Shown here piece after piece: positions 27,325 through 37,604 of a DNA stretch of 51,136 nucleotides. The notes beneath the pieces were generated by a model that was not told the DNA's origin, searched no databases, and was given only the letters and a program-made list of their open reading frames with translations. How positions within the stretch are numbered: the stretch's first letter is position 1; each line of letters begins with the position of its first letter. The position numbers and the translations under genes are program-made. Source of the DNA: Candidatus Eiseniibacteriota bacterium (GTDB taxonomy: Bacteria > Orphanbacterota > Orphanbacteria > Orphanbacterales > Orphanbacteraceae); the NCBI GenBank assembly GCA_024276995.1, contig JAJRWB010000057.1, positions 1 through 51,136 of the forward strand, written 5' to 3'.

Positions 27325-27535
27325 GGTAACCTCGACCCGGAGTACTATTATGATACGGACAAATCAACCGGCGGCGATTCTCACGGCTCCCGCGGCGACC
27401 GGATGATTGTATCGGGGAGCGAATGGCCTGTCCAGAAGCCCGGCGGAAAACCCGACCCGTGTTCGACCCTATTTCCGAGGTTCCGGTCCTGCCGGATTCC
27501 CCGGGCGGTTTCGCGCTTTCGAAGGGGTGGAGCGA

Positions 27536-30500
27536 ATGGGGTGGAACATCCGAACATCTCCCCCGCTACTTCTTGTTTTAATTGTTTTTCTCCTTCTATC
27601 TTCCGGATGCTCTTCCCGGGAAAAGACGGCTACCGGCTCCATCTATGATCTGCGCGGCGTCCGTCTTTCCGATGATCTCCGGCCTGCTCTCGAGGAAGCG
27701 CGCGACGCTCTCACAAAACCGGAGCCAACGAATCGGGCGGTAAAGGATATTGCCCTCTTCAACGACCTTACCGTCCGGATCAAGCGCCCGGAGACCCGGG
27801 AAGAAGCCGGAGATGAGCTCTATCGTCTCTGGTCCGAAGAGCCGGACCAGTTCCTCTGGATTATCGCCGCCGCCAAGAACGAATACCTTCTCGGGCGGGG
27901 GTCCGAATTCGAGGAGATGCTCCGCCGTCCCGTGTTCGCCGATTCGACCGGCCCGGTGGCCGCCTTCGCCGCGGGATGTCGCAATTACGGCTACGGATCA
28001 CGGGGAGAACATTTTCTTCGCGCCGGCGCCCGGATGGCGGAGCTCGATTCGCTCCAGCAGGTTCTGCTCTCTTTGAAGATCGCCGCCGCCGTCGGCGACG
28101 GGGGAGACAGGCTCGGTGCCGTTCAGAGGCTGCTCGCCTTGGTCCCGATGGCCAGGGCAACCGGCGGACACGGACTCGAGATGTTTCCCTGGTACTATGC
28201 CGGGCTGTTCCTGAGACAGGATGATCGCCTCGACGATGCGCTTCATATAGCGGTTTTCGGAGAGGAGATGGCGCTTGCCCTGGAAGATCGTTCCTGGGAA
28301 GTCCGCTTCCGGATCCTGCTCGCCGGAATAGTGCAGGCGCGCCGGGAATACGACATCTCCCTCGCGATGTTCGACGAGTGCGCCCGCGACGCCATGGAAG
28401 CGAATCTTCCATGGCTCTTCGCGGACAGCATGGATCGGGCCGCCGCGCTCTGCAGCGCTCTCGGCGATCCGGCGAAATCCCTTCGCTTCGACCGTCGCAA
28501 CCTGGAACGTGCCGTCGCGGGCGGCGACTCCTTGAACGCTCCTCGAAATATGATGAACGTAGCAAACGATTTTCGGTTGCTGGGAGAACTCGATTCTTGT
28601 CTCACGTACCAGACGCGAGCCCGGGCCTGGGTGGAGGCATATGGGGATGAGCGAAACAAGACGATGCTCCCTCTCCTGGAAGCGGAATACTTCTGCCAGG
28701 TCGGAGAATACGCCGTCGCCGAATCTCTCCTCGCAGAAGCCGCCGGGAAATCCCGGGGGGCGACCCTCGCCGTCGATGAGGCGCGCATCCTTATCGGCTT
28801 GATCCGGCAGGGTTTGGAAATGGGGCAGCCCGATATCGCCTACGGAGCGATCGGCCGGCTGAATGATCTTCGGAAAACGCTTCACGACAACCAGCCGGAC
28901 CAGAATTTCGTTGCCGATTTCGAAATCGCCGTTGCGAAGTTCCTCGCGGGCCGGGGCGAGTTCCGTCGCGCCCGGAAAGCGCTCGACCGGGCAAAAACAG
29001 CGGTCGATGCCGGTGGCGGTGTGGAGAAAGAGTGGCAGTACTTCCTGGCGGAAGGGGAGTTGGCCCGGCTCCGGGGAGACCTCGTTTCAGCGGTCGATGC
29101 GTTCCGTGCTTCTCTCGTGATCGCAAAAAGTTCGCCCAACCCCGATTGGGTCGTGACGAGTCGCTTTTCTCTCGCCCACGCCCTCCTCGAGGAGGAACGT
29201 TACAAAGAGGCGCGCGCACTCTTCGAAGCGGTGCCGTTGAACGAATCGTTCGGGGGTCGGTTCCGGACTCGGCTGAGTTGTGCAATTTTTCTCGGGATCA
29301 CTCATCGGCGTGAAGGATCTTTCGAAGAAGCTCTCCGCCAATTCCGCCGCGCGGACCGGATGCTGACGTCGAACTCACCTCCCGACCTGGTGGCGCGCCT
29401 GCGAATCGAGGAAGGCCGCACTTTCGCCGGTCTCAACCGACCGGACGAGGCGCACCACTCGCTCCTAGAAGCCCTTGAAATCTTGAAACAGAAGGGAAAC
29501 CGCGCGGTAGTTGACGAGCTGCGGGCCTTTCAGGAAGAGGCCCTTCGAGACGCGACGGAGGCTCTCGTCGGTCTATACTACGATCATCCTTCTCTTGTGG
29601 GTGGGGAGATGCCTCGCCGTACGTTCCTGCTCGTGGAGGAGAATCGCTGGGATGGCGGCGGAGCGGCCGAGGCCGGTGAATATCTCGACCGCTATCTCGT
29701 GCCCGGCGCCGGCCCGATCGCGGCATACTTCATCGGCCGCGAGCGATCCTTCACCTGGGTCTGCTCATCGGGGAAGGTGGATATTTTCCCTCTTCCCGGC
29801 CGTTCCGTTCTTCGTCGGGAATTGTTGCCGGTTCTCTCCGATATGGAGGTGCCGACTCGACTGCCGGACGCAGGGGCCGTGGAACATCTCACAAGACTCC
29901 TGCTCGGATCTTTGATTCCCCGCTGGAACGATGGCGCCACCCTTCACATCATTCCCGACGACATCCTCTTCTTCGTCCCATGGGCCGCTCTCTTTCTGAA
30001 CGAAGGCGGTGAACCGTTGCTGGAACGGGGGCCGATCGTCGAAGGCCCGAGTATCGTGTTCCTGGATGATCGACTCTCCCCTTCCGGATCGGCACGGAAC
30101 GGATCTCTTCTGTCGATCGGGGCCAACGGTAACGCCGACGATACGATTGGTAATAAGCTGCGCTTCGCCGAAGAGGAAGCCCGCCGGGTTGCGGCGCTCT
30201 GGCCTTCCGGGCCGTCGCTTCTCCGGACCGAGAGTGATGCTTTATGGACCGGGCCGGATGCAGCCATGCTCGACACGTTTCGTGTAATTCACATCGCCTC
30301 CCACGCGGTGGTGCGCCGGGGGCTCCCCTCCAGCGCTTCGCTGCAGATCGCCGGTGACGGGGGGGGCGCACCCATCACGATCTCCTCTCTTCGCCCTCTC
30401 AGGCTGACTGCGGACTTGATCTATCTTTCCTGCTGCGAGACGGCGATGAGGCATTCCGGGGGGGATGCGCTTCTTGATTTCGCCCGCGCATTTCTCGCGG

Positions 30501-30709
30501 CGGGCGCCCGGTCGGTGATCGCCTCGACGATCCGGGTGGACGACGAGGCATCTCTCTTCCTGGCGGTCCATTTCTACCGCTATTGGCTCGAAGGGAAAGG
30601 AAAGGCGGCCGCTCTCAGGGCCGCCCAACTCGATCTTCGCGCCTCCGGACCGAAGTGGCGGCACCCCTACTACTGGGCCTTTTACCGGACCTTCGGTTCC
30701 TCGCTGTAG
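27536..30709 (+). CDS. TPR-CHAT lipoprotein (caspase-like protease domain)
   Basis: This 1057-aa protein starts with a lipoprotein signal (LLLVLIVFLLLSSGC). A long alpha-helical TPR-type region (~90-660) follows, for example ARDAMEANLPWLFADSMDRA. The C-terminal CHAT domain (~740-1057) is a clan CD cysteine peptidase. The catalytic dyad looks intact: His923 in IHIASHAV and Cys967 in LSCCET, followed by FLAAGARSVIASTIRVDDEA and WAFYRTFG. CHAT proteins cleave target proteins when their sensor regions are triggered. Being lipid-anchored, this one would act in the periplasm or at the surface rather than in the cytoplasm. The ATG at 27536 is preceded by AAGGGGTGGAG. Confidence 0.88.
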   Translation: MGWNIRTSPPLLLVLIVFLLLSSGCSSREKTATGSIYDLRGVRLSDDLRPALEEARDALTKPEPTNRAVKDIALFNDLTVRIKRPETREEAGDELYRLWSEEPDQFLWIIAAAKNEYLLGRGSEFEEMLRRPVFADSTGPVAAFAAGCRNYGYGSRGEHFLRAGARMAELDSLQQVLLSLKIAAAVGDGGDRLGAVQRLLALVPMARATGGHGLEMFPWYYAGLFLRQDDRLDDALHIAVFGEEMALALEDRSWEVRFRILLAGIVQARREYDISLAMFDECARDAMEANLPWLFADSMDRAAALCSALGDPAKSLRFDRRNLERAVAGGDSLNAPRNMMNVANDFRLLGELDSCLTYQTRARAWVEAYGDERNKTMLPLLEAEYFCQVGEYAVAESLLAEAAGKSRGATLAVDEARILIGLIRQGLEMGQPDIAYGAIGRLNDLRKTLHDNQPDQNFVADFEIAVAKFLAGRGEFRRARKALDRAKTAVDAGGGVEKEWQYFLAEGELARLRGDLVSAVDAFRASLVIAKSSPNPDWVVTSRFSLAHALLEEERYKEARALFEAVPLNESFGGRFRTRLSCAIFLGITHRREGSFEEALRQFRRADRMLTSNSPPDLVARLRIEEGRTFAGLNRPDEAHHSLLEALEILKQKGNRAVVDELRAFQEEALRDATEALVGLYYDHPSLVGGEMPRRTFLLVEENRWDGGGAAEAGEYLDRYLVPGAGPIAAYFIGRERSFTWVCSSGKVDIFPLPGRSVLRRELLPVLSDMEVPTRLPDAGAVEHLTRLLLGSLIPRWNDGATLHIIPDDILFFVPWAALFLNEGGEPLLERGPIVEGPSIVFLDDRLSPSGSARNGSLLSIGANGNADDTIGNKLRFAEEEARRVAALWPSGPSLLRTESDALWTGPDAAMLDTFRVIHIASHAVVRRGLPSSASLQIAGDGGGAPITISSLRPLRLTADLIYLSCCETAMRHSGGDALLDFARAFLAAGARSVIASTIRVDDEASLFLAVHFYRYWLEGKGKAAALRAAQLDLRASGPKWRHPYYWAFYRTFGSSL

Positions 30710-32556: not shown

Positions 32557-32588
32557 CCCGTTGCCCGTTGCCCGTTGCCCGTTGCCCG
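32557..32588. repeat. Heptanucleotide tandem repeat (TTGCCCG, about 4.6 copies)
   Basis: CCCG is followed by four perfect TTGCCCG units. An inverted partner, GCGGGCAAC at 32525-32533, is complementary to GTTGCCCGC at 32581-32589. The repeat lies in a gene-free stretch of about 300 bp (32357-32654), where I see only this repeat and the hairpin at 32431-32453. Confidence 0.85.
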
Positions 32589-32710
32589 CAAGGGGAATCA
32601 ATCGTGTGAAATCCGGTTGTCTTTGTGGAGAAAGTTGTTGCCCGGGTCGGGAGGCTATTGTCCGTCCGGACGCGGTTTTTTTCCCTCGGTGAGATCCTTC
32701 TTCCCATCGG

Positions 32711-32727
32711 TCCGGCAACCTGCCGGA
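32711..32727 (-). promoter_or_regulatory. SECIS-like hairpin just downstream of an in-frame UGA
   Basis: On the minus strand TCCGGCA-GGT-TGCCGGA forms a perfect 7-bp stem with a GGU loop. It starts 11 nt after the TGA at 32739-32741, so the loop is 18 nt after the UGA. Bacterial SECIS elements have a short stem with a GU-containing loop at about this distance. It lacks the bulged U seen in the E. coli element, and it has no T-run that would make it a terminator. Confidence 0.4.
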
Positions 32728-32738
32728 TCAGGATCGGC

Positions 32739-32825
32739 TCACGTGGGGACGCCGAGCTTCGGAAGAATGAAGAAATTAAGCACTCCGTAGAGAACGAGAA
32801 TACCGATGAGAACATAGCCGCTCAT
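32739..32825 (-). CDS. 28-aa membrane microprotein, possibly the N-terminal part of a 56-aa selenoprotein
   Basis: The ATG at 32825 opens a single-helix peptide (GYVLIGILVLYGVLNFFILP, then KLGVPT) that stops at TGA. It lies 28 nt downstream of the DUF2892 gene on the same strand, with an AAGAAGG ribosome site. If the TGA were read as selenocysteine, the frame would continue for 27 more codons (ADPDPAGC, then a charged tail) to a TAG at 32655-32657. The hairpin at 32711-32727 lies where a SECIS should. Against this, third-position GC in the extension is only about half, lower than in neighbouring genes. The short reading needs nothing special; the long one is a hypothesis. Confidence 0.5.
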   Translation of the reverse strand: MSGYVLIGILVLYGVLNFFILPKLGVPT

Positions 32826-32853: not shown

Positions 32854-33078
32854 TCAGGAGCGCCGGCCGTCCGATTTCATCGGTGTCTTCGTTTCCGGCC
32901 TTCCGCCGAGACGGAGCATCATATCCATGGGGCAGAACCCGGTGAATGCCGACTGGAGCATGTTCGCTCCGATGAAGACGGTGAATAGAAGCCACCACCG
33001 GCTCACGAATACGGTGAGCGCCACGCTCGCGAGGATCATCAACCCCACGATGATCCTGAACAGTTCCTTCTGTGCCAT
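32854..33078 (-). CDS. DUF2892 (YgaP-type) inner-membrane protein
   Basis: This 74-aa protein has two membrane helices and the DUF2892 pattern: FRIIVGLMILASVALTVFV, a central RWW, then GANMLQSAFTGFCPMDMMLRLGG, of which GFCPMDMML is diagnostic. The same module is the membrane part of E. coli YgaP, where it is joined to a rhodanese; here it stands alone. The conserved Cys may take part in sulfur or redox chemistry. GAAGGAGAT precedes the ATG. It is the fourth gene of the RND-LolA-barrel operon. Confidence 0.85.
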   Translation of the reverse strand: MAQKELFRIIVGLMILASVALTVFVSRWWLLFTVFIGANMLQSAFTGFCPMDMMLRLGGRPETKTPMKSDGRRS

Positions 33079-33126: not shown

Positions 33127-34383
33127 TCAGAAAGTGTAGCGGACACGGGTGAAAACGTTGTCATTGCCGTCCAACTGACCGAAGAGTGTCTGGTTGCTGT
33201 TCCCCTCGAACACGTTCGCCCCGGCGGCGACCTCCACGTCATCGGTCACCTTGTAGCTCGCCAACGCCCTGGCGTGCATGTCCTCGTCGGTGGGGGAATA
33301 GAACGTGAAAAGGGAAAGTCGTACGGTCTGGTAGTTCATCATCTTCTCGAGGCGCATCGTAACGATCTGGCGCAGCTCATCCGCCGCCCACGCTCCCGCC
33401 GGAAGTCCGGCGGCATAGCTGTCGTGGTCGACCATCCATTCGCCGTACCATTGGAGGCTCACGTTGAAGTCGGTGGCCACCTGCCGCTCGAACCCGGCGA
33501 GGAACCGCCCCGACGAGTTCGCCACCATCGGGTCGTCGCCGTCCGGATCGTCCCTCGAATCGTAGTAGCCCCCCTCGAGCCAGGCGACGCCGCCCGCCAG
33601 TCCGCCGCGGAGACTCGCGCCCGCCACGGAAAGCTTCGGGTAAAAGGGGATTCCATCCGTCCCCATGCCCGCCGGTGTCTTGAAGAAACCGCGATAGCCG
33701 TAGAGCGATGCGGTGAAGTTTCCCACGTAACGGGAGAGGCGGATCGCCGTCTCGCCGTTTTCGAGCACGTTCGCCGGCATCCCCGGAGGCCCCGCCGTCC
33801 CGGGGGGCGTGTAAAATGAAAGCCTCTCCCCGGTGGGGATCCGGTCCGGCGTAAACTCCGGCATAAGCACCAGGTCGACGTCGAAGGGAAGGCCGAAAAA
33901 CCCGAGCCGCACCGCATCGGCCGGCGCCTTGAGATACTGATCCTCCCGGCCGACGAAGAACGATACCCAGTCCTTGGGAAAGAGATCGTTGATGAAAATC
34001 AGATCGCCCGTTCCCCAGGTGAGCGCCTGGCGCCCCATTTTCACGTCGACGTGGTCGCCGAAGGTGGAGAACTTCAGGTATCCATCCCGCACTTCCAACC
34101 CCGTTCCTCCTCCGGAGATCTGGTCGTCGAGAATGTCGAGACGGAGAAACACCTCGCCTTGCTCTCCGTACGCGCCGAGCCGCAGCTGGGTGCGCGTCTC
34201 TTCAAGGGTGTAGTCCTGCATGCCGTCGAAAGCGGCATCCTCCGCGGTGCGCACGCCGACAGCACCCTCCACGAAGCCGTGCCATTCCACCTCGCCGGCG
34301 AAGGCGCCGGTCACCGCGAAGGCGAAGAAAAGGGCCGCCCCGAAAATGCCGGGGCCCAACGAATATCGTCTTTTCGGATTCAT
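33127..34383 (-). CDS. Outer-membrane beta-barrel protein (DUF1302-like)
   Basis: This 418-aa protein has a signal peptide (IFGAALFFAFAVTGAFA) and a mature part made of alternating amphipathic strands. It ends in RVRYTF, the C-terminal aromatic signature recognised by the BAM machinery. VKMGRQALTWGTGDLIFINDLFP is typical of DUF1302-type and related TonB-independent barrels. It starts at the ATG at 34383, 14 nt after the LolA-like gene, with a GGGAAGAG ribosome site. With the RND protein and the periplasmic LolA-like protein it would complete a path across the envelope. Confidence 0.82.
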   Translation of the reverse strand: MNPKRRYSLGPGIFGAALFFAFAVTGAFAGEVEWHGFVEGAVGVRTAEDAAFDGMQDYTLEETRTQLRLGAYGEQGEVFLRLDILDDQISGGGTGLEVRDGYLKFSTFGDHVDVKMGRQALTWGTGDLIFINDLFPKDWVSFFVGREDQYLKAPADAVRLGFFGLPFDVDLVLMPEFTPDRIPTGERLSFYTPPGTAGPPGMPANVLENGETAIRLSRYVGNFTASLYGYRGFFKTPAGMGTDGIPFYPKLSVAGASLRGGLAGGVAWLEGGYYDSRDDPDGDDPMVANSSGRFLAGFERQVATDFNVSLQWYGEWMVDHDSYAAGLPAGAWAADELRQIVTMRLEKMMNYQTVRLSLFTFYSPTDEDMHARALASYKVTDDVEVAAGANVFEGNSNQTLFGQLDGNDNVFTRVRYTF

Positions 34384-34397
34384 CGCTCTTCCCCCCC

Positions 34398-35210
34398 TCA
34401 CTCGGCGATGTACTTCTTCGGCGGCGCCTTCAAGTAGCGCTCGGTGAACAGGTCATCCCCGACACCCACGTCGTACTCCACCTTCGAGAAGGAGACGGTG
34501 GTGGAGCTCTTCTTCTTCTTGTTCTCCATGCTCCGTACCGTCACCGTCTGGATGCCGTCGATCTCCTCGATCTTCTCCGCCTTGAACACGCGGACGAGTT
34601 CGCCCTTTTTATCGTAGTACTCCTCCCGCTCCGGGAGTATCCTGTCGACACTCACCCACGTGATCTTCTTCGCGAACGAATCCTTCTGTTTCGGCACGCT
34701 TTCGATCACGTAGAAATCGCGCCCCTCCACCGTTTCATTCCTCAGAAGTTTATGATTGTCGTCGGTCCAGTGACGTCCGGAGACGTCTTCGTAGGTGAAG
34801 TCGCTTCCCACGAAGGAAGACCCCTTGTCTTTCGCCGAAATTCTTCTCACCAAGTCGAGCGCCGGAATGTAGATCCAACGCGAATCGTCGGCATCCGGAT
34901 TCTTCCACACCATGAAGCTCGTGCGCCGCACGTCGCCCGGTGCGGTGAAATAGGTGAAGTATTTCTGCGCGCCGCCGTCCTCCACATCGAGGCGGAGCAT
35001 GATGAAACTCCTCTTCCTCGTCTTGCCGCGCTTATCGGTGAGTTCCATGTCCACCTGCGCCCTTCCGTCGGTGGCGGCGTAGTAGAGGTTCAGGTGCGCT
35101 TCCTTCATGATCTCCTCGGCGCTCTTCTCGGCCGCCCCCACAAGGGAGACCCCTGCGAGGAGCGCCGCCGAGGCGACGATAAGTGCGAGCGCGTTTCCGG
35201 ATCTCTTCAT
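34398..35210 (-). CDS. LolA-like periplasmic protein (outer membrane lipoprotein-sorting protein family, COG2834)
   Basis: This 270-aa protein has a signal peptide (LIVASAALLAGVSLVGAA) and a LolA/LppX-like half-barrel fold. EIMKEAHLNLYYAATDGRAQ is followed by strands such as SFIMLRLDVEDGGAQKYFTYF, SRWIYIPALDLVRRISAKD and TYEDVSGRHW, which are hallmarks of this COG. Family members carry lipids or hydrophobic ligands in the periplasm and are usually encoded next to MMPL/RND proteins, as here. The gaps are 20 nt to the RND gene and 14 nt to the barrel gene. The start codon at 35210 follows AGAGAGGA. Confidence 0.88.
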   Translation of the reverse strand: MKRSGNALALIVASAALLAGVSLVGAAEKSAEEIMKEAHLNLYYAATDGRAQVDMELTDKRGKTRKRSFIMLRLDVEDGGAQKYFTYFTAPGDVRRTSFMVWKNPDADDSRWIYIPALDLVRRISAKDKGSSFVGSDFTYEDVSGRHWTDDNHKLLRNETVEGRDFYVIESVPKQKDSFAKKITWVSVDRILPEREEYYDKKGELVRVFKAEKIEEIDGIQTVTVRSMENKKKKSSTTVSFSKVEYDVGVGDDLFTERYLKAPPKKYIAE

Positions 35211-35230
35211 AACGGTCCTCTCTTTCGTTT

Positions 35231-37540
35231 TCACTGTCTCGCCCCTTTCCCGCCGGCGAGAAACGCCGGGTTCATGAGCGACAGGATTGCGGGAAACGTG
35301 AACAGCGTTGTGAACCCGCTGATCACCATGATGGCGAAGAAAAAGGCGCCCACCGTGATGTAGGGCACCAGGTTCGCGAAGAACATCGGGACGAAACCGA
35401 CGGCGATCACCAGGATGTTCCGCGTGATCGCCCTCGCCGGCGTCTGGAAAAGCCGCTCCATCGCCAGCGGGAAGTCGCCCGTTTCCCGGTAGATCTCCCT
35501 CGTTCGCTGCAGGAAGTGGATGGCGAAATCGATCGAAAGACCGAGGGTGAGCGACGAGAGTATGGCGATCGGCATGTCGTACGGCTTCCCGCCGAACCCG
35601 ATCGCCCCGTACACCATGGCGATCGTCACGGTGAGCGGAATCATCGAGATCAATCCGAGCCGGACCGAGCGGAAGAGGCCGATCATCATGAGAAGGACGA
35701 CGACGAAACTGCCGATCAACGCCTTCGACATCCCCTTCACCATTTTCTCCTGCCACACGACGTTGATATACGGAAGCCCCGCCCACCCGGCGGTCACCCC
35801 GGCGGGGGGCGGGTTCTCTTCCATGTACTTCCGCGCCGATTCCACGACGCTGCTCACGGCGCGGTTCTCCCCTTCCTTCATCTGCACCCAGATGTTCATC
35901 CTGTCCGCCTCGGGGGTGATGAACTTGAACAAGTCCGCCGGATCGCCGCCCGATATTTCATAGAGAAAGAGATACTGGGCGATCTCGTCCCGCGAGTCGG
36001 GGATGACGCCTTGTGCCGGATCGCCCTTCAGCTCTTCGCCCATTTTCTTGATCACGTCGGTCACGCCGGTGGTGGCACCGACGTTCGGGTGCTCGAGGAG
36101 GTGTTCCTGCAGCGCCTCCGCGTATTTCATCACCGCCGGATCCTTCAGTCCGCCTTCTTCGGGAACGGAAAGGACGAGGTAGGCGATGTACGTGCCCGCG
36201 AGGTGCTTGTTCATCTCACGGTCGGCGATGCGGAGAGGGTGATCCGCCTTGAACCAGTTCACCGGGTTGTCGCTCACCACGATCCGCGTGAGTCCCCAAA
36301 CGGAAAGGGCGAGCACGAGAACGCCGCCCGCGACGATCGGCACCCTGTGGCGGAGCGATGTGGTGCGGATGAACCGCATCGTGGCGTTCATCATCGAGCC
36401 GCCGTCCTCTGCACCGCCGAAGGTTTCGAACGTCTTCTTCGGAATGAGCATCACGTACGCCGGGACGAAGAGGATCGAAAGGAGCCAGGCGACGAAGATG
36501 CCGAACGCCACGAATGCGCCGAAAACCTGCACGGGCGGAATCGGCGTGAACATGAGCGATGCGAAGCCGACCACCGTGGTGATCGATGTGAACGCCATCG
36601 GCACGAACAGCTCGTCCATGGTATCCACCACGGTGCGCCGCATGTCGCGGGTCTGGTGGTAGCGGTCGTGGAACTCGCTCAGCACGTGGATCGAGTTGAG
36701 CACGGCGATCGGGATCAAAAAGATCGGGATCATGGAACTCATGATATGAACCGTGAAGCCGAGACCGATGAGAAGCCCCATCGACCAGATGACGCTCATC
36801 ATGGCGACGATCATCGGCCCGAGCACCACGAGCGCCTTGCGGAAGAAGAAGAGCATGAGGAGGAAGATCAGCAGAAAGGCCATCGGCGCGGAGATCGCCA
36901 TCTGTTTGAACATCTCTGCACCGAACGTCGATTCCGCCACGGGGATCCCGGCGAGGTGGTACGTCTCGTCGCCCCCCACCTCATCAACGATACGGCCCAA
37001 TTCGAGGGACACACGGTGCGCGATCTCCTTGTTCTCGATGGGGAAGAAGATGGCGCTCGTCGTGCCGTCATCCGACGCGAGCTTCCCGCGAAGGATCGGG
37101 TTCGCCAAGATCTGCCGGAGCACCCGGTCCGCCCCCTCCTGTGTTTCCGGGGGCTCCTCCATGAGCGTTTCCACGCGGAGGATTCCCTCGTCGGTGGTGA
37201 AGATATCGTCCACCTCGGTGGGCGCGAGGATGTCGTAGTCGATCACCCCATCGATTTCGCTCCCCCGCCGGGTGATCTCCGCGATCCGTGCAAGCGACAC
37301 CGGGTTGAAGAGCCCCTCGTCGCGGACCACCCCGAGCACGATCCAGTCGTGAATCCCGAATGCCTCCATCACCCCATGGTGAAACAGACGCACCTCCTCA
37401 TTTTCAAGAAGCATGTTCTCCGGGTCGGTGTCGATGTGGATCTTCGGCATCTGCCAACCGAAGAAGAGCGTGATCAGCACGCTCACGAGGACCACCAGCT
37501 TCGGGTGGTTGATCGAAATACCTACCAGTGTGTGCTTCAC
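35231..37540 (-). CDS. RND superfamily (MMPL/SSD-type) exporter
   Basis: This 769-aa pump has twelve predicted helices in the 1+5+1+5 RND pattern. The first is at ~13-30 (LVVLVSVLITLFFGWQMP), the first periplasmic loop covers ~35-205, helices 2-6 cover ~210-380 and the rest follow a second loop. SLTLGLSIDFAIHFLQRTRE is the charged RND helix-4/10 motif. This is the COG1033 group, which often moves lipids or hydrophobic molecules. I prefer the GTG at 37540 to the ATG at 37555, because the AATGGAGG around that ATG is itself a good ribosome site 8 nt before the GTG. It heads a five-gene operon. Confidence 0.9.
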   Translation of the reverse strand: MKHTLVGISINHPKLVVLVSVLITLFFGWQMPKIHIDTDPENMLLENEEVRLFHHGVMEAFGIHDWIVLGVVRDEGLFNPVSLARIAEITRRGSEIDGVIDYDILAPTEVDDIFTTDEGILRVETLMEEPPETQEGADRVLRQILANPILRGKLASDDGTTSAIFFPIENKEIAHRVSLELGRIVDEVGGDETYHLAGIPVAESTFGAEMFKQMAISAPMAFLLIFLLMLFFFRKALVVLGPMIVAMMSVIWSMGLLIGLGFTVHIMSSMIPIFLIPIAVLNSIHVLSEFHDRYHQTRDMRRTVVDTMDELFVPMAFTSITTVVGFASLMFTPIPPVQVFGAFVAFGIFVAWLLSILFVPAYVMLIPKKTFETFGGAEDGGSMMNATMRFIRTTSLRHRVPIVAGGVLVLALSVWGLTRIVVSDNPVNWFKADHPLRIADREMNKHLAGTYIAYLVLSVPEEGGLKDPAVMKYAEALQEHLLEHPNVGATTGVTDVIKKMGEELKGDPAQGVIPDSRDEIAQYLFLYEISGGDPADLFKFITPEADRMNIWVQMKEGENRAVSSVVESARKYMEENPPPAGVTAGWAGLPYINVVWQEKMVKGMSKALIGSFVVVLLMMIGLFRSVRLGLISMIPLTVTIAMVYGAIGFGGKPYDMPIAILSSLTLGLSIDFAIHFLQRTREIYRETGDFPLAMERLFQTPARAITRNILVIAVGFVPMFFANLVPYITVGAFFFAIMVISGFTTLFTFPAILSLMNPAFLAGGKGARQ

Positions 37541-37604
37541 TTTCCGGGCCTCCATTATTAAGAAACGCTGGAAACGTCGATTCCCTCACTTCCCGTGGAC
37601 CATT

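Follow-up and report, generated by a model that had tools for sequence, protein, structure and literature searches.

A predicted family of very small single-helix membrane selenoproteins in bacteria, recognized from an in-frame UGA in a Candidatus Eiseniibacteriota contig

The eukaryotic selenoproteins SELENOK and SELENOS consist of a single membrane helix with selenocysteine (Sec, U) in a short tail, and their SECIS element lies in the 3' UTR. The bacterial proteins described here share with them the single helix and the Sec in the tail, a likeness meant as an analogy of how such proteins may work and not as a claim of sequence relationship, and they differ in the position of the SECIS, which in the eukaryotic genes is outside the coding region. 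The SECIS of Escherichia coli fdhF has a G-rich apical loop and a short stem. The hairpin of the present gene is similar in these two respects and in its distance from the UGA, whereas it has no bulged U and its stem sequence is unrelated. It has been observed for bacterial selenoproteins that an in-frame UGA is immediately followed on its 3' side by a SECIS-like hairpin, that SelA, SelB, SelC and SelD co-occur and that Cys homologues exist (PMC13188914). The general model of the bacterial SECIS (bSECIS) specifies a loop of 3-9 nt with a G in its first two positions, a stem of 4-16 bp, a location of the loop 16-37 nt after the UGA and a minimum free energy of <= -7.5 kcal/mol, and it contains no requirement for a bulged U (PMC13188914). 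The in-frame UGA, the hairpin behind it, the occurrence with the Sec machinery and the Cys homologues recur in the family reported here, which in contrast to the described ones is single-helix and mostly 45-75 residues long, carries U directly behind the helix and has only rare Cys homologues.

An inventory of 2026 comprises 119 prokaryotic selenoprotein families and subfamilies (PMC13188914), and no family of such architecture was found in it by name or by motif. None of the families of Haft and Tolstoy (2025) fits in the form in which they are entered in that inventory, the family is not reported in the accessible part of a deep-learning survey of 2025, and motif text searches of the open-access literature did not find it, although an earlier description elsewhere is possible. 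The UXX-star, KCU-star, CC/Se motif and Dual CXXC motif families of NCBIfam are likewise small and UGA-recoded, but no meaningful match to their models was obtained with 45 members of the present family; with the same members no model of NCBIfam 20.0 matched, apart from one chance match (E=0.075). Pfam-A offered no consistent model, and the sporadic weak matches to Pfam-A and NCBIfam reached at best 0.0011 in one member. The decoding mechanism appears to be standard; what seems to be new is the protein family, together with its architecture.

The window (the whole analysed stretch of 51,136 nt) is contig C39 of a 3.76-Mb assembly that is 96% complete. On its minus strand a reading frame starts with the ATG at 32825 and runs through 28 codons (MSGYVLIGILVLYGVLNFFILPKLGVPT) to a UGA at 32739..32741, after which the frame stays open for another 27 codons (ADPDPAGCRTDGKKDLTEGKKPRPDGQ) up to the TAG at 32655..32657 (minus), visible in the sequence as the true stop of the extended frame. 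The arrangement of 28 codons, TGA and 27 open codons had been described in an earlier note on this DNA, and its coordinates were confirmed. With the UGA read as U the product of the gene (32658..32825, minus) has 56 residues, MSGYVLIGILVLYGVLNFFILPKLGVPT-U-ADPDPAGCRTDGKKDLTEGKKPRPDGQ, with U at position 29. A single membrane helix is predicted, from hydrophobicity judged by eye, to be encoded by 32757..32816 (minus). In this gene a Cys is located at +8 from U, and the codon following the UGA is GCC rather than a Met codon. The proposal of the earlier note that the locus is a candidate selenoprotein gene is now strongly supported by the conservation of the TGA and of the tail in homologues (alignment A3, see below), by covariation in the hairpin and by the co-occurrence with SelB, and it is very probable that the locus encodes a SelB-decoded membrane selenoprotein of 56 residues.

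The putative SECIS occupies positions 32711..32727 (minus). As the earlier note had stated, it consists of a perfect 7-bp stem (UCCGGCA/UGCCGGA, 32727-32721 paired with 32717-32711) closed by a GGU loop (32720-32718), with a spacer of 11 nt (32738-32728) between the UGA and the stem and a distance of 18 nt between the UGA and the loop. The hairpin was recovered by RNA folding (-16.6 kcal/mol), and its properties (loop 3, stem 7, GGU, 18 nt, hairpin energy -10.5 kcal/mol) are all within the thresholds of the bSECIS model, scored here with a simple in-house implementation of the SECIS geometry. Comparable hairpins were found at 11 of the 1155 TGA triplets in all frames of both strands of the window, and the z-score relative to dinucleotide shuffles was between -1.7 and -2.0. 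Taken alone, the hairpin in the window is weak evidence; it is through its conservation in homologues that it stands far beyond what chance would give.

Homologues with TGA at the equivalent place were identified in three further genomes of the window's phylum (seven genomes searched), and all of them share a Cys-Arg pair located eight residues behind the TGA. A domain-wide search yielded 42 genes in 41 of 386 genomes, belonging to 31 families, and TGA occupied the site in 42/42. A profile (A3), the alignment built from these domain-wide homologues, gave matches in 269 of 391 relatives of one carrier (G314); all of the about 155 matches listed had TGA at the site, and no other stop occurred among them. 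The earlier note had regarded as contrary to a selenoprotein that homologues should end at the same place with different stop codons, or that the downstream sequence should not be conserved. Neither TAA nor TAG was ever seen at the Sec site among the homologues inspected, and the peptide after the UGA is conserved. Searches of plasmids, phages and IMG/VR gave no homologues. Weak matches in G022, G030, G151 and G133:C147 proved on inspection to be unrelated and were discarded. In one SelB-positive genome the homologue (L112, G251:C168:3078-3194) has CGA (Arg) in place of the TGA and a truncated tail, which may mean either that Sec has been lost here or that the gene is decaying.

A hairpin with the loop size, loop G and distance of the bSECIS model and a stem of at least 4 bp followed the UGA in 41 of the 42 homologues. 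The mean best energy was -8.5 kcal/mol, as compared with -2.9 kcal/mol behind 537 ordinary TGA stop codons that terminate long ORFs in the loci of the homologues (Mann-Whitney p=1.6e-16) and -2.1 kcal/mol for codon shuffles, and energies <= -7.5 kcal/mol were reached by 24/42 homologues versus at most 6/42 in any shuffle. Most loops lie 16-24 nt behind the UGA, and GGA, GGC, GUU, GUC, GGU, GUG and similar sequences predominate among them. Covariation was evaluated in 20 homologues picked for a common geometry of the predicted hairpin. In this set 97.5% of the cells were paired (63.6% after shuffling), a percentage that is favoured by the selection because it was the hairpin geometry by which the set was chosen. 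All six stem pairs showed compensatory changes on both sides, and the covariation score was 0.862 versus 0.220 for shuffled alignments and <=0.229 when the columns were slid by 1-3; the diversity of pair types is unaffected by the geometry-based selection.

SelB, called at a threshold of E <= 1e-60, was present in 176 of the 386 genomes: in 41/41 of those bearing a homologue and in 135/345 of the others (Fisher p=6e-16; p=9e-15 without the window's own family). This co-occurrence and the TGA-only site are the grounds on which the UGA at 32739..32741 is assigned to selenocysteine. The genome of the window encodes SelB (359 bits) and tRNA-Sec (71 bits, gathering score 47), so that a genome without selB and selC, which the earlier note regarded as contrary to a selenoprotein, is not what was found. 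SelD (380 bits; L154, G000:C49:5158-6081) has an in-frame TGA (YAAKAGU) at the known Sec site KAGU, and it is predicted to be a selenoprotein itself. SelA was found in two pieces that are in different frames and share about 16 nt (L121, G000:C12:38652-39739). The interruption is probably an assembly error or indel; a real frameshift is possible, and a real loss of SelA would stop Sec synthesis in this genome. Formate dehydrogenase as a second Sec marker was uninformative in this genome, with matches that lack TGA and are below the cut-off. Given SelA, SelB, SelD and tRNA-Sec, the organism is probably capable of selenocysteine synthesis. The earlier note was right that the window contains no selenocysteine machinery and that the hairpin has no bulged U, yet these doubts carry little weight because the machinery is located on other contigs and the general bacterial model does without a bulged U (PMC13188914). 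The GC content of about 50% at third codon positions of the tail, raised as a further doubt, carries little weight as well.

The consensus of the family consists of a short N-terminus, a hydrophobic helix, the motif [VIL][LF]P[KR][LM]G[VI]xT-U-[MAL]xxxC and a short charged tail. Directly behind the helix LP[KR]xG[VI]xT-U is near-invariant, and the surroundings of U are typically GV-x-T-U-M-S-x-x-C. Among 70 homologues Thr precedes U in 69, Cys is found five residues after U in 51 and Met follows U directly in 43; in seven the nearest Cys, if there is one, is more than 15 residues away from U, therefore a resolving Cys is not universal. The comparison of similar tails, in which differences at codon positions 1, 2 and 3 numbered 510:351:953 (the pairs being non-independent), points to a tail that is under constraint at the protein level. 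In two homologues from different families, L095 (G225, E=3.9e-29) and L113 (G083, E=5.5e-29), the reading frame crosses the UGA and continues into a complete thioredoxin domain. In the case of L095 a Cys close to U is missing from the tail.

Homologues with Cys in place of U, which a selenoprotein family is expected to have and which the earlier note had suggested looking for, were found but are rare (L042, L043 and L044). The Cys form is LPRMGVPTCGSGEC in two Kuenenia-labelled MAG contigs and LPRMGVPTCMGGSC in a Planctomycetales MAG. Behind the TGC of the Planctomycetales form (L044:1523-1585) there is still a strong hairpin of the SECIS type (gtgcggt-GTC-accgcac, 20 nt, -9.7 kcal/mol); it may be left over from a recent change of Sec to Cys, or it may be due to chance.

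Were the UGA an ordinary stop, the gene would specify a membrane peptide of 28 residues, which is a feasible length, and the hairpin would be a chance structure or a terminator; a similar hairpin does accompany about 1% of the TGA triplets in this GC-rich window. Such a stop would not explain why the site is only TGA and never TAA or TAG in the homologues inspected, why the tail is conserved and is continued into by the Cys homologues, why the hairpin covaries within a narrow range of distances, why co-occurrence with SelB is absolute, or why thioredoxin is fused through the UGA, and we consider this reading very improbable. Even less probable, in our judgement, is termination at the UGA with re-initiation at an adjacent ATG, which would yield a membrane peptide and a small soluble Cys-containing peptide. 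The Met after the UGA in 43/70 homologues would agree with it, as would the fusion L095, in which the ATG right after the UGA is the sole start codon before the thioredoxin core. However, 27/70 homologues, the window gene with its GCC among them, have no Met in this position (in the fusion L113 the codon is CTA), the Cys forms are continuous proteins, and re-initiation needs neither a preference for TGA over TAA or TAG, nor a hairpin, nor SelB.

The shortness of the ORF, and the co-directional gene that in some genomes lies close behind it (e.g. one for an FmdB-type zinc ribbon in G012), could suggest a selenium-sensing leader, in which the UGA and the SECIS control the downstream gene and the peptide has no function. 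In many genomes, however, the next gene is convergent or distant, the downstream genes differ from genome to genome, the gene in the window is the last of its run, and the motif is conserved across 31 families and has twice been fused to thioredoxin; a leader is thus still less credible than re-initiation. The open frame after the UGA would also be compatible with its reading as tryptophan or with a reassigned code, but TGA commonly serves as the true stop of the homologues, the residue that substitutes for U is Cys and not Trp, and the presence of the gene tracks SelB, which makes this the least probable of the alternatives. Decoding of the UGA as selenocysteine by SelB is the reading adopted in what follows.

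The selenoprotein gene is the last in a run of minus-strand genes in the order MMPL transporter - LolA_like - DUF1302-like barrel - YgaP-TM - selenoprotein. The LolA_like protein and the MMPL-family RND transporter are encoded at 34398..37555 (Pfam E=7.3e-58 and 2.6e-29), the DUF1302-like outer-membrane-type protein at 33127..34401 (E=1.6e-4, below the curated cut-off) and the YgaP-like_TM (DUF2892) protein at 32854..33078 (E=2.8e-12). The DUF2892 neighbour mentioned in the earlier note is thereby real; its gene lies 28 nt upstream of the selenoprotein gene, and the two are probably co-transcribed. YgaP-like / DUF2892 (PF11127) matches this neighbour alone and not the selenoprotein peptide. 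LolA_like/MMPL genes, a DUF1302-like homologue and YgaP-TM are likewise found in G004, with the order kept for the latter two. YgaP-TM is a neighbour also in G199 (directly upstream) and G181, and AcrB/MMPL RND transporters are neighbours in the window, G004, G199, G370 and others. Further neighbours in individual genomes are ArsR-type regulators, OsmC (G110, G359), a CMD-domain protein (G126), a peroxiredoxin (G696) and rubrerythrin (G696, G541). The Planctomycetales Cys form adjoins genes for ArsR, DsrE, a rhodanese-YgaP protein and a metallo-beta-lactamase-rhodanese protein that resembles persulfide dioxygenases, a set typical of sulfide/persulfide detoxification. YgaP (rhodanese-DUF2892) and operons of the persulfide-dioxygenase type are recurrent neighbours, and the Cys form lies inside such an operon, whereas neither a rhodanese nor a YgaP domain is present in the selenoprotein. 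No operon partner common to all genomes was found, and neighbourhoods vary; within one large lineage the gene is often solitary, therefore a fixed partner is not needed. Genes for FmdB-type zinc ribbons seem to lie directly behind the selenoprotein gene in L101, L068 and L073, with confirmation by Pfam for L101.

According to established biology, SelB and Sec-tRNA-Sec would bind the hairpin and the UGA would be read as selenocysteine. Charge counts in 71 members gave 0.32 Lys/Arg versus 0.92 Asp/Glu for residues 1-6, whereas the nine residues before U contain about one Lys/Arg and almost no Asp/Glu. Taking into account the positive-inside rule, this bias suggests that U is at the cytoplasmic face. 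We propose with moderate confidence that the helix is oriented N-out/C-in, which would place the selenol on the cytoplasmic side of the inner membrane, and, with similar confidence, that the selenol may pair with the tail Cys as a selenenylsulfide, which could be reduced by thioredoxin, as the thioredoxin fusions suggest. The protein would then be a relay for redox or sulfur transfer, tethered to the membrane and serving its neighbours (YgaP-TM/rhodanese, RND transporters, OsmC, peroxide or persulfide enzymes). The fusions, the charge bias, the neighbours and the operon of the Cys form together favour a membrane-tethered Sec/Cys redox or sulfur relay, and a cytoplasm-facing Sec/Cys redox relay is what we consider the probable role of the family; our confidence in any particular substrate is low. 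A broader reading, offered tentatively, is that these proteins are among the most widespread bacterial selenoproteins and form a general membrane-tethered selenol/thiol relay, a functional counterpart of the eukaryotic single-helix selenoproteins, which might couple cytoplasmic thioredoxin to inner-membrane proteins of transport and of sulfur or peroxide handling; the family would have been overlooked because only about 28 residues remain if the UGA is taken for a stop.

The gene, which is missing from the inventory and profiles searched, occurs in about 10% of the broadly sampled bacterial genomes and in about 70% of the relatives of one carrier. If the prediction is correct, the selenoproteomes of many bacteria, and their selenium requirements as well, would have to be recounted, and very small recoded genes would still be able to escape annotation. 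With its rare Cys replacements the family could also serve as a compact, testable membrane system for the question why Sec is kept over Cys.

Two minor features of the window may be mentioned. An ORF of 1100 residues is present at 27407-30709 on the plus strand, and its C-terminal part, located behind repeats, appears by eye to be CHAT-type caspase-like. Just downstream of the selenoprotein gene, at 32560-32590, the seven-base unit GCCCGTT forms a short tandem array.
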